Shown: one piece after another, positions 4,792 through 21,557 of the stretch | Layout of the letters: each line of letters begins with the position of its first letter | Position numbering within the stretch: the stretch's first letter is position 1 | Source: Deltaproteobacteria bacterium | GTDB lineage: Bacteria > Campylobacterota_A > Desulfurellia > JAGGSF01 | Assembly: GCA_021159235.1 (NCBI GenBank) | Contig: JAGGSF010000101.1 | Span: forward strand, 1 to 31,598 | DNA: 31,598 nt | Direction of reading: 5' to 3' | Made by a program: the position numbers and the translations under genes | The notes under the pieces: model-generated | What the model saw: the letters and a program-made list of their open reading frames with translations, nothing else | Database searches by the model: none | Told to the model about the DNA's origin: nothing

Positions 4792-6210
4792 CTACCCCTT
4801 TACTATGCCAACTGGTCTAAGTCTAACAATCTTCTTTGCCAAATTCGCACCCTCCACAATAGAGATAATCTCCTCTATATCCTTGTATGCCCCGGGCACT
4901 TCTTCCAATAGAGATCTTACACTGGGTGAAAGAATCACAATACCTCTTTTCTCCAAGTCTTCAAGAACATCCTTCTTAAAAGACTTTAATGCCTTCCTTC
5001 TACCCATTATTCTGCCTGCACCATGACAGATACTTCCAAAACTCTCCTCCATCGCCTCTTTAGTACCTACACAAATGTAGGAATAACTCCCCATACTACC
5101 AGGAATGTTCACCGGTTGCCCCACTTCTTTAAACGAGGAAGGAGTAAGTTTATGTCTAGGAGGAAATGCCCTGGTTGCTCCTTTTCTATGCACACACAGT
5201 CTCATTTTTTTCCCATCTACCATATGCTCTTCTATCTTGGCAATATTGTGACATACATCATAGACAAGATTGTAATCTACATTCCTTTTCAACACCTCCC
5301 CAATTGTCTCCACCGCCTTAAAAGAGATAATCTGGCGATTGGCAAAGGCAAAGTTAGCAGAAGCACACATAGCGGAAAAGTACTCCTTTCCATCTTCAGA
5401 TAAAATAGGAACACTAATCAATTCCCTATCCGGGACAGTGATACCATAGTCGGTGCTTCTCATCTTCTTTATATAATCACCACACACCTGATGCCCCAAT
5501 CCCCTGGAACCGGTGTGAACGAGAAGAACCATCTGCCCTTCTTCTAAGCCAAACACATGGGCTACATCCCCATCATAGATTTCATCCACTACATCCATCT
5601 CCAAAAAATGATTTCCAGAACCTAAGGATCCCAGCTCTTTGCCACCTCTTTCCCTTGCCTCTTCACTTACCATTGATGGGTCCGCATCCACCAGGCATCC
5701 ACCATCCTCTATCCTTTCTAAGTCTTCTTCCTTCCCAAATCCCTTTTTTACTGCCATTCTTGCTCCACAGGTCAAAATATTATCCAGCTCTTTTCCTCTT
5801 ACTGGATATATCGCAGCATCACTCACCATTCCCTTTGGTATCCTGAGATATAAAGCCTTCATCACCTCTTCCAACTTACTCTTCATCTCAGAAAGAGACA
5901 CGGATAAGGCAACACTTCTCACTCCACAGTTTATATCGTAACCCACACCACCAGGAGAAATAACACCTTTTTCTACATCAAACGCCGCAACTCCACCAAT
6001 GGGAAACCCATATCCCTGATGACCATCAGGCATGAGCAATGCCCTCTTCACAATGCCCGGAAGATGTGTGATGTTTATCAACTGCTCAATTGTCCTATCC
6101 TGTTTTATCCTTTCCAGAAGCACCTCATCGGTAAACATTCTCGCCGGAACGAGCATATCCCCTTCTCTCTCAATATCGTATATAAAGGGAGAAATCTTAA
6201 CAATCTTCAT
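4792..6210 (-). CDS. rtcB: RNA-splicing ligase RtcB (3'-phosphate/5'-OH RNA ligase)
   Basis: This 472-aa GTP- and Mn-dependent ligase joins 2',3'-cyclic phosphate or 3'-phosphate RNA ends to 5'-OH ends (tRNA splicing in archaea and eukaryotes, RNA repair in bacteria). Metal-site residues are visible: D92 and C95 in GYDINCGVR, H201 in GSGNHFLE, H232 in VHTGSRGLG and H321 in YDVCHN. The guanylylated His is H396 in CHGAGRIMGR. The length matches the long, archaeal-like RtcB rather than the roughly 408-aa E. coli form. No intein is present, although RtcB hosts inteins in some archaea. The start overlaps the archease stop (ATGA), so the ligase is coupled to its activator. Confidence 0.97.
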   Translation of the reverse strand: MKIVKISPFIYDIEREGDMLVPARMFTDEVLLERIKQDRTIEQLINITHLPGIVKRALLMPDGHQGYGFPIGGVAAFDVEKGVISPGGVGYDINCGVRSVALSVSLSEMKSKLEEVMKALYLRIPKGMVSDAAIYPVRGKELDNILTCGARMAVKKGFGKEEDLERIEDGGCLVDADPSMVSEEARERGGKELGSLGSGNHFLEMDVVDEIYDGDVAHVFGLEEGQMVLLVHTGSRGLGHQVCGDYIKKMRSTDYGITVPDRELISVPILSEDGKEYFSAMCASANFAFANRQIISFKAVETIGEVLKRNVDYNLVYDVCHNIAKIEEHMVDGKKMRLCVHRKGATRAFPPRHKLTPSSFKEVGQPVNIPGSMGSYSYICVGTKEAMEESFGSICHGAGRIMGRRKALKSFKKDVLEDLEKRGIVILSPSVRSLLEEVPGAYKDIEEIISIVEGANLAKKIVRLRPVGIVKG

Positions 6211-6608
6211 ACATCAAAAACGATATTCGCCCTCCATTTGTCATCTTTTTTTATCCTCAAATATTCATAGGTTGCTGCCTTTATCTCCATCTTCAATCTA
6301 TCTTTATCCTTATCAAAATAGTAACCGGAAGCCTCTATATCCAGCTTCTCATCCACTTTTACCCTACACTCCACACACACAAATCCACAGGTATAGAAAA
6401 GATACAAAAACTCATTCAACATATCCACTAAAGCATCTTCTTCATTTATACAGTCAACCTTTAATTTTCTTATATCTTCTATGCGTCTTTTTCCCTCCAC
6501 CATGATATCATACATAGACAAAACAGCATTTGCAAAAAGCCTTTCTTTAGTTTCTCCAGACACACAGATGTAGATATCAGCGGTATGATTGAGAAAAATA
6601 TAATCCAT
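6207..6608 (-). CDS. Archease, RtcB activator
   Basis: This 133-aa protein belongs to the archease family, which promotes RtcB guanylylation and multiple turnover. Family marks are NHTADI at 7-12, with the metal-binding Asp at D11, EEDALVDMLNEFLYL at 56-70, EIKAATYEYLRI at 108-119, and the C-terminal W-x-A-N-I-V-F-D-V with D132. It is the first gene of the operon and is coupled to rtcB by a 4-base overlap. No Shine-Dalgarno precedes the ATG, and a -10-like TTAAAT lies only 6 bases upstream, so the mRNA may be leaderless. The pairing with rtcB makes the assignment strong. Confidence 0.93.
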   Translation of the reverse strand: MDYIFLNHTADIYICVSGETKERLFANAVLSMYDIMVEGKRRIEDIRKLKVDCINEEDALVDMLNEFLYLFYTCGFVCVECRVKVDEKLDIEASGYYFDKDKDRLKMEIKAATYEYLRIKKDDKWRANIVFDV

Positions 6609-19748: not shown

Positions 19749-21557
19749 CTAAATCATTTTAGGTGGTTCAATACCTGTTTGTTTTTGATATCTACCCTTC
19801 TTATCTTTATAAGAGATCAAACATTCTTCTTCAGCACTCAAAAAGATAACCTGTGCAATACCTTCGTTGCTATATATCTTCGCCGGCAGTGGTGTGGTGT
19901 TGGATATTTCAATGGTTACATAACCTTCCCAGCAGTTACTTGACCAGCAGGCTTTTCCATTTCTCCTTACATACAAAGTATGATTAGGAACTGTAACATC
20001 ATATACATAATCATCATAATCTATTTTTGAGAATGACCTTTTGTATATTTTAGGTGTTAGCTGTTTCTTACTTATTCGGATTTTATAAATGTCATAGTTA
20101 TATTTTATAATATGTTGTCCCAGTCTCCTCATAGGCATTTTTTCTTTTGGTATTCTTCTCACAGTAGAAGCCCAGCCAGCCTTTAAGACGAGCTCTTGTA
20201 TGTCATCTGCTAACTTTTTTGAAGTGGTTGTGTAAGTTAGAGTTTGTTCATTCCCATCTCCCATCATGTATGCATCTAAGAAAATTTTAATCTGCTTAGG
20301 TGGTAAAGACTTTATCTCAGGAGGAACAAACTTTTCTGAAGCATGTCCAAACCGCAAAAGGTATAAGCAAAGCTGCTTACTCTCTATTTGAAATCCTGTG
20401 TCAGTAATATAATATCTAAAAGGTAATTTTTTAATCCATCCTTCAATTATTTTTTTATTTTTGCCAAAAGCAGCAACTTTAACATGATATCCTTTTTTAG
20501 AAACACAAGCACTACCTTCAGCAATCCATATTCCAAAAAATCTTAGCCAATCATCCATAGGAATTTTTACTGGTTCACTGTAACAATCACTGTCTGCATA
20601 ATTAATATCCTTCAGTGACCATACATATATCTTGTTTGCACCTATATTCCTTTTTGCATACATAACCCTTCTTTCTAAAACATCTTGCTCATATAAATCA
20701 GAAAGTATTTTAGCAAATTCACGATAGCTAATCTTAGTCTGGATATTGCTATATAACTCTTTAGAATTTAATTCACCCTCTTTCAAAAGATCTATTATTT
20801 CCTGCCTTATTTTATAATATATTGAAAATCGCAAGCTTTTCATAACAGGTGGTAGAATAAAGTAGTCCTTTTTTTGCCCCTTCCATATAGCATCCCTCTT
20901 AAATTCATAATTATATTTCCCATAAATTTCATCTGCTCTAATAAATTCAAAAGTATCACTCCCTTTCTTCCTTACAAAAAGTTGATGTGCAGGAGTAACA
21001 GCAAGGTCAACATTTCTTCCTCTTATTTGTATAAGCTTATCTTTGAATCTAAACTTTTGTCTCCTGATAATTCTTTGATATTCTATCTCTCCCTGTTCAC
21101 TCAATGTTGCAACAATTTCATCATCTTTTATGTCTTTAAACCTTTTCCACCCATCAAGAGTGAGCAATTCTGTTTCTTTATCATAACAGGGTTCCAATGG
21201 TGTAATGTTGACTACAATCCCGCATCTGGCATAGGTAGACTTCCCCAGGCAAATAGCCAATACATCTCTTGGTATCCTGAAATACTCCATACTGCGAGCC
21301 AAAGCGAAGGAATTGGGAGGAATAATACATACATCTCCCTTAAAATCTACATAGTTTTTATCCGTGAAATTTTTAGGATCCACTATGGTGCAGTTCACAT
21401 TGGTAAATATTTTAAACTCATCCGCCACCCGCATGTCATAGCCATAGGAAGAAACACCAAAGGAGATAACGCCTTTTGATACCTGCTTCTCTTCAAAGGG
21501 AGATATCATCCCCTTCTTTGCCTGTTCTATAATCCAGCGATCATTCCTCACACTCAC
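19749..21557 (-). CDS. dcd: dCTP deaminase precursor interrupted by an intein
   Basis: This is a 602-aa precursor. The exteins (1-123 and 542-602) join to a 184-aa dCTP deaminase, the normal size, which makes dUTP (or dUMP in bifunctional forms) for thymidylate synthesis. Host motifs are SYGYDMRV (37-44), [20 protein letters not shown] (104-123) and, after the intein, [20 protein letters not shown] with catalytic Glu E550 and NEGIAQVIF. The intein splits the conserved stretch between P123 and the +1 Cys C542, where relatives usually have Glu or Gly before WEG. The start is GTG, overlapping the previous stop (GTGA), with GGGAAGG upstream. Splicing is required for activity because the break is inside the active-site region. 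Confidence 0.95.
19935..21188 (-). mobile_element. Intein with LAGLIDADG homing endonuclease in dcd
   Basis: This 418-aa in-frame insertion covers precursor residues C124 to N541. Block A starts at C124 ([17 protein letters not shown]). Block B is [13 protein letters not shown] with T188 and H191. Block F is [13 protein letters not shown] (518-530) and block G is ACWSSN followed by Cys 542. The endonuclease has both LAGLIDADG helices: FFGIWIAEG (E347) and [11 protein letters not shown] (D434), so the acidic catalytic residues are intact. Between the Hint N-half and the endonuclease lies a winged-helix-like segment (about 246-315). Two 120-base samples of intein DNA have 31 and 36 G+C, against 47 in a flanking extein sample, which suggests later acquisition. 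It encodes no tail of decay: no stops or frameshifts. Confidence 0.93.

Follow-up and report, generated by a model that had tools for sequence, protein, structure and literature searches.

The dCTP deaminase gene (dcd) in the DNA that we analyzed very probably carries, in the active-site region of the enzyme, a mobile homing intein of the LAGLIDADG type, which we infer would splice, cleave, and home. The intein is of a known kind, and its host protein is a known one too; its site is not the one that has been characterized. Its most interesting trait is that it supplies its own cysteine at the first position of the downstream extein (the +1 position). By the window we mean the whole stretch of 31,598 nucleotides (JAGGSF010000101.1, positions 1-31,598); coordinates are counted from its first letter.

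The dcd frame has 602 codons, runs from 21557 to 19749 on the minus strand, and has no internal stop. Pfam DCD is matched in both flanks of a 418-amino-acid insert (19935-21188; precursor residues 124-541, between P123 and C542), and the window's Dcd scores 140.3 bits with TIGR02274, the equivalog model for Dcd, against a cut-off of 92.8. When the exteins are joined, they form a protein of 184 amino acids that aligns end to end with a solved Dcd, 4DHK (E = 3.8e-82). In the other two genomes of the genus, G001 and G002, Dcd is an uninterrupted frame of 184 amino acids, and the joined exteins are identical to these proteins at 172 and 173 of the 184 positions, respectively (93-94%). A preliminary description of this DNA had placed a 418-residue in-frame insert at exactly this position, and it was correct to the base: the spliced 184 residues fit uninterrupted Dcd, and the extein alignment that it proposed as a check is full-length for G001, G002, and 4DHK. 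It also reasoned that the insert would not be an intein if the same 418 residues were a normal domain of uninterrupted Dcd; 61 genes from 193 relatives are without them. The features are as follows.

21189..21557, minus strand: N-extein of Dcd, residues 1-123, aligned with the uninterrupted Dcd of G001 and G002 and with 4DHK
19935..21188, minus strand: intein, C1 to N418, precursor residues 124-541; missing from Dcd of the same genus, with same-site homologs in 13 genomes and an AlphaFold match to homing inteins
21150..21188, minus strand: splicing block with the nucleophile C1; C1, T6, L9, T10, and G13 are invariant in 12 inteins
20973..21014, minus strand: splicing block with TxxH; T65 and H68 are invariant in 12 inteins
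20613..20834, minus strand: predicted winged-helix accessory domain, intein residues 119-192 (H-H-H-E-E), from the AlphaFold model and structural matches
20508..20549, minus strand: LAGLIDADG motif 1 (block C) with the acidic E224; E or D in 12 of 12 inteins
20247..20285, minus strand: LAGLIDADG motif 2 (block E) with the acidic D311; D in 11 of 12 inteins and E in 1
19965..20006, minus strand: splicing block, from the alignment of 12 inteins
19935..19955, minus strand: splicing block G, KACWSSN, with the terminal N418 and a penultimate Ser; N418 is invariant, and 12 of 12 inteins end in SN or GN
19932..19934, minus strand: codon for the +1 nucleophile, TGC (C542); GAA or GAG (Glu) in the intein-free genus-mates
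19749..19934, minus strand: C-extein of Dcd, residues 542-602 plus the stop codon, aligned with uninterrupted Dcd

Anatomy and fold of the intein

The insert has the features of a class 1 intein: it lies in frame, its removal restores a conserved host protein, and it combines an N-terminal Cys nucleophile, the TxxH of block B, a C-terminal Asn, and a Cys at +1. C1, T65, H68, N418, and both LAGLIDADG acids are retained in all 12 of the inteins that we aligned, and the usual penultimate His is missing from all 12. Among domain models, LAGLIDADG_3 from Pfam (PF14528) is above its cut-off in the insert; Intein_splicing from Pfam and the NCBIfam models for the N and C termini of inteins score below theirs.

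The AlphaFold (AF2) model of the intein has a mean pLDDT of 90.7, and its whole length matches solved homing inteins. The top structural matches are TliVMA (7QSU; Z = 26.6, 300 aligned residues, 4.0 Å) and PI-TkoII (2CW7; Z = 26.6, 364 aligned residues, 6.8 Å), with PI-PfuI and PI-SceI also near the top. A Hint fold is apparent from VIA, in which many solved Hint domains match, such as 7OEC (Z = 18.1, 1.7 Å over 139 residues); that a family is missing from the VIA lists was given no weight as evidence. Thus, the preliminary description of a complete homing-type intein is supported by the splicing blocks, by both LAGLIDADG motifs, and by the fold, with Ser in place of the usual His before the terminal Asn (SSN/C, where the slash marks the splice junction). 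We consider the intein to be real, complete, and probably active as a homing element.

Between the N-terminal part of the Hint domain and the endonuclease, residues 119-192 are modeled as three helices and two strands. When this segment was modeled alone (pLDDT of 81.8), its VIA matches were overwhelmingly to winged-helix proteins, including the PadR, MarR, and HxlR types (best Z = 10.9). It is probably an extra domain, resembling DNA-binding proteins, beside the endonuclease, and contact with DNA is predicted. TliVMA and PI-TkoII contain an accessory domain that resembles helix-turn-helix DNA-binding proteins (PMC8966425), so the winged helix is one more version of an established arrangement. 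Like the window's intein, both TliVMA (7QSS/7QSU) and PI-TkoII (2CW7) combine Hint, LAGLIDADG, and helix-turn-helix-like parts; in the window's intein, however, the last of these parts is a winged helix placed ahead of the endonuclease in the sequence, and the host proteins and sites are different.

If the intein splices in the usual manner, Cys1 would attack the Pro123-Cys1 bond (an N-to-S shift), the N-extein would pass to Cys542 by transesterification, and cyclization of Asn418 would free the 418-residue intein. The exteins would then join to give a 184-residue Dcd that reads ...TPLEP-CWEG... We found a single copy of dcd in the window's genome, along with ThyX and a weak match to the thymidine kinase family, and we did not find a dUTPase of family PF00692 in that genome. 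With one dcd, ThyX, and no PF00692 dUTPase, splicing of Dcd is probably important for the supply of dUMP and dTTP.

The residue after the intein

Except at C542, the window's C-extein is the same as that of G002. The motif [NH][VI]TPx[ED]P-X-W, in which X is the +1 residue, was found in 61 intein-free genes (46 genera, from 193 relatives): X is Glu in 54, Gly in 4, Gln in 2, and Met in 1. Cys was found at X in none of these 61 genes, and a search for ...PCW matched 0 of 386 genomes. At +1, Glu or Gln is present in 21 of 21 intein-free relatives from the window's own class for which this pattern was used; Thr occurs at this position once among the intein-free genes of Caldisericota. Every genomic intein-bearing dcd gene with a readable junction has Cys at +1. 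Since all of the readable intein alleles have this Cys and none of the 61 intein-free genes do, the Cys comes in together with the intein.

In published accounts, the host residue that follows an intein insertion site is C, S, or T (e.g., PMC2814812), in contrast to the Glu, Gly, Gln, or Met that we see in uninterrupted genes at the P/C site. Because the native Glu is none of C, S, or T, an incoming copy must overwrite that codon with Cys. The endonuclease would be expected to cut an intein-free allele around ...CCN-GAR-TGG..., probably with help from the winged helix in contacting the DNA, and repair templated by the intein-bearing copy would insert the intein and replace the +1 codon with one for Cys. 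In effect, we infer, the mobile unit is the intein plus its +1 codon. Beyond that codon, no co-conversion tract was seen: 5 of the 36 codon differences that are specific to the window fall in codons 112-136 (p = 0.57). Once spliced, the window's Dcd would carry Cys in place of Glu; none of the 61 uninterrupted genes has Cys at this position.

A similar situation is known for the MCM-d intein of Haloferacales, whose empty sites have Pro at +1 and whose occupied sites have Ser; such co-conversion is rare and limits invasion (PMC10643990). Both inteins face a non-nucleophile at +1 in empty sites and need co-conversion. Whereas co-conversion is rare for MCM-d, the swap is present in every readable dcd allele with an intein at P/C. 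A more specific reading, which we rate at somewhat under an even chance, is as follows: the lineage lives only where uninterrupted hosts lack the nucleophile, its own +1 Cys codon is obligatory, and it crosses phyla and leaves no Cys-marked empty alleles. On this reading, the lack of Cys-marked empty alleles implies that losses, if any, occur when an intein-free allele replaces the gene and not by precise deletion. Because uninterrupted genes have Glu, Gly, Gln, or Met at this site, each invasion leaves its mark in the +1 residue, from which gains and losses can be counted.

Same-site inteins and movement between phyla

Inteins at the same site of Dcd were found in 13 further genomes, from Caldisericota, Chloroflexota, Elusimicrobiota, Patescibacteria, and Methylothermaceae; such recurrence at one codon greatly exceeds what chance would give. 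A pattern scan of genome contigs from 84,980 species, which demanded Cys at position 1 of the intein but allowed any residue at +1, gave 11 of these: one each from Patescibacteria, Anaerolineales, Thermoflexales, Thermoflexus, Methylothermaceae, and Elusimicrobia, four from Caldisericota, and one bacterium within the Caldisericota set. A protein search of Caldisericota added two (G078 and G089), and 7 of the 38 Caldisericota genomes with a match bear the intein. None of the 24 other genomes from the window's own phylum have an intein at this site. That phylum is not Caldisericota: G037, which shares only the domain with the window, has match coordinates identical to those of G087 from the Caldisericota list. 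In the phage and plasmid collections, no Dcd with an intein at P/C was present among the matches listed (60 of 128 for phage records), which were intein-free Dcd or unrelated hosts. A scan of viral contigs for the exact pattern of the P/C site gave no match; a looser variant, L082, surfaced through another site and is described below.

These same-site inteins differ in their architecture. The copies from Caldisericota (L039-L042, L044, and L049), Elusimicrobia (L037), and Patescibacteria (L046) share with the window's intein the site, P/C or A/C, and the three-domain build with the winged helix; they are 45-73% identical to it where aligned, in hosts from other phyla. We found no paper that describes the same-site Dcd inteins of these three groups. 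The Chloroflexota copies (L032, L033, and L036) are alike in site and in having LAGLIDADG, but they are shorter (335-341 amino acids), lack the winged helix, and are just 37-40% identical. In L039, the second LAGLIDADG motif is altered (LRDGS for LGDGN), possibly an early stage of endonuclease decay.

The host gene and the intein have different histories. In the tree of exteins, the window groups with G001 and G002 (support of 100/100) inside its own class; in the tree of inteins, it groups with three copies from Caldisericota (100/99). This conflict implies that the intein moved across phyla, and it is a clear example of an intein being transferred from one bacterial phylum to another, into a host gene that has itself descended vertically. 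A patchy distribution together with such a conflict is the pattern of a homing intein. Between the window and L039-L041, synonymous sites are saturated in the exteins, whose identity is 74-77%, and the inteins are 70-78% identical with a dS of about 0.7-1.5; given these values, the intein is younger than the host gene in this lineage. The direct donor is not among the sampled genomes, where the closest copy is 73% identical. Within Caldisericota, L040 and L042 have exteins that are 76% identical and middle (endonuclease) regions that are 45% identical.

Might the intein still splice but have an inactive endonuclease, so that it is now inherited vertically or is kept as a regulatory switch for Dcd? 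The altered second motif of L039 is in keeping with such decay, and the supply of dUMP could become conditional if the protein is spliced so close to its active site. However, both catalytic acids are present in all 12 inteins, and the region that separates the two splicing halves has a dN/dS of 0.12-0.24 in those pairs with the least saturation (Nei-Gojobori; rough values), which fits a working endonuclease under purifying selection. Recent mobility is also implied, as just one of the genus's three genomes has the intein and its place in the tree is with copies from another phylum. We therefore regard an inactive endonuclease as unlikely.

Still less probable is an intein that was already present in the ancestor of the genus and that G001 and G002 have since lost. 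Loss is a normal phase of the intein cycle, and three genomes alone cannot polarize the change. But the intein-free relatives from the class have no leftover Cys at +1, the intein is as similar to L039-L041 as the exteins are while its synonymous sites are less saturated, and the extein and intein trees conflict. Finally, although Intein_splicing scores under its cut-off, the notion that an extra domain of the ordinary kind, or an artifact of assembly, explains the insert can be set aside, as the same insert is found, precise to the codon, in 13 independent assemblies, the model has the Hint and LAGLIDADG folds, and all of the splicing nucleophiles are retained.

Other inteins in Dcd and in other proteins

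The preliminary description hinted that dcd might be a new host for inteins. This did not hold: Dcd of cyanophage vB_AphaS-CL131 (ORF069) was already known to contain an intein, which excises itself in E. coli (PMC6293099). The window's intein shares that host protein but is not of the CL131 type, as shown by both insertion site and endonuclease class: the CL131 intein lies at STYAR/C, 11 residues upstream, and has an HNH endonuclease. At STYAR/C, unlike at P/C, Cys is the native +1 residue in the window's class. We found no description of the P/C site of dcd in the literature. Because Dcd inteins from Proteobacteria and Chloroflexi are cited (PMC6293099), we do not claim that this site is unreported; the Chloroflexi intein cited there may share it. 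Dcd is, moreover, a hot spot for inteins, with three sites within 20 residues of extein. A Dcd intein from Chloroflexi is reportedly described by MacGregor et al. 2013 and Novikova et al. 2016.

All three sites are occupied in a single dcd gene from Thermoflexales (L033, JAUQXC010000528.1), which has inteins of 412, 376, and 341 amino acids at GK/S, STYAR/C, and FEP/C. This gene is also seen in L077 (from nucleotide 1158, 1327 amino acids). The extein pieces between its inteins have just 5 and 12 residues, so an enzyme of about 190 amino acids is spread over a frame of 1,327 codons. Eight viral contigs (L078-L085) have Dcd inteins at STYAR/C; those of L078 and L083 are the size of mini-inteins, and others look like the HNH-type intein of CL131. 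In one of the eight, L082 (IMGVR_UViG_3300049489_000838), the window's site is occupied as well (TPGEA/C...GN/SWKG), and this second intein is followed by Ser instead of Cys at +1.

More distant relatives are found in phages. The LAGLIDADG inteins that end in RRNGKxxW(S/C)(G/S)N (L028, L029, and L116-L195, including Lak phages) are recognizably related, with 26-45% identity in the best segment, but their hosts are phage tail proteins, methyltransferases, and others, and no winged helix was detected in the 55 viral relatives considered. L116-L195 form a large family with the common ending RRNGKxxW(S/C)GN, in many phage proteins and with S, T, or C at +1. Another relative (36.5% identity) lies in a radical-SAM gene in the plasmid collection (LC711081.1, 23489-24553; the record is 84 kb long and derives from an uncultured archaeon).

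We also noticed other inteins in related genomes. In the window's own genome, the anaerobic ribonucleotide reductase NrdD (contig G000:C15; L075, frame from nucleotide 634, 1,866 amino acids) has three inteins, the first of which apparently starts with Thr (GAY/TYFGKE...WNHN/CVGWD), an unusual first residue; an NrdD intein is also present in the genus-mate G001 and in the classmate G009. A CapD-like polysaccharide-biosynthesis epimerase from Patescibacteria (L076 in G061:C54, frame from nucleotide 277, 981 amino acids) has an intein-like insert. Within the window, RtcB (472 amino acids), UDP-glucose dehydrogenase (427 amino acids), and DnaB (441 amino acids) are all uninterrupted, just as had been described. 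Directly upstream of rtcB (4792-6210) is a frame that resembles archease (6207-6608, minus strand), which may be an instance of the known functional pairing of archease with rtcB.
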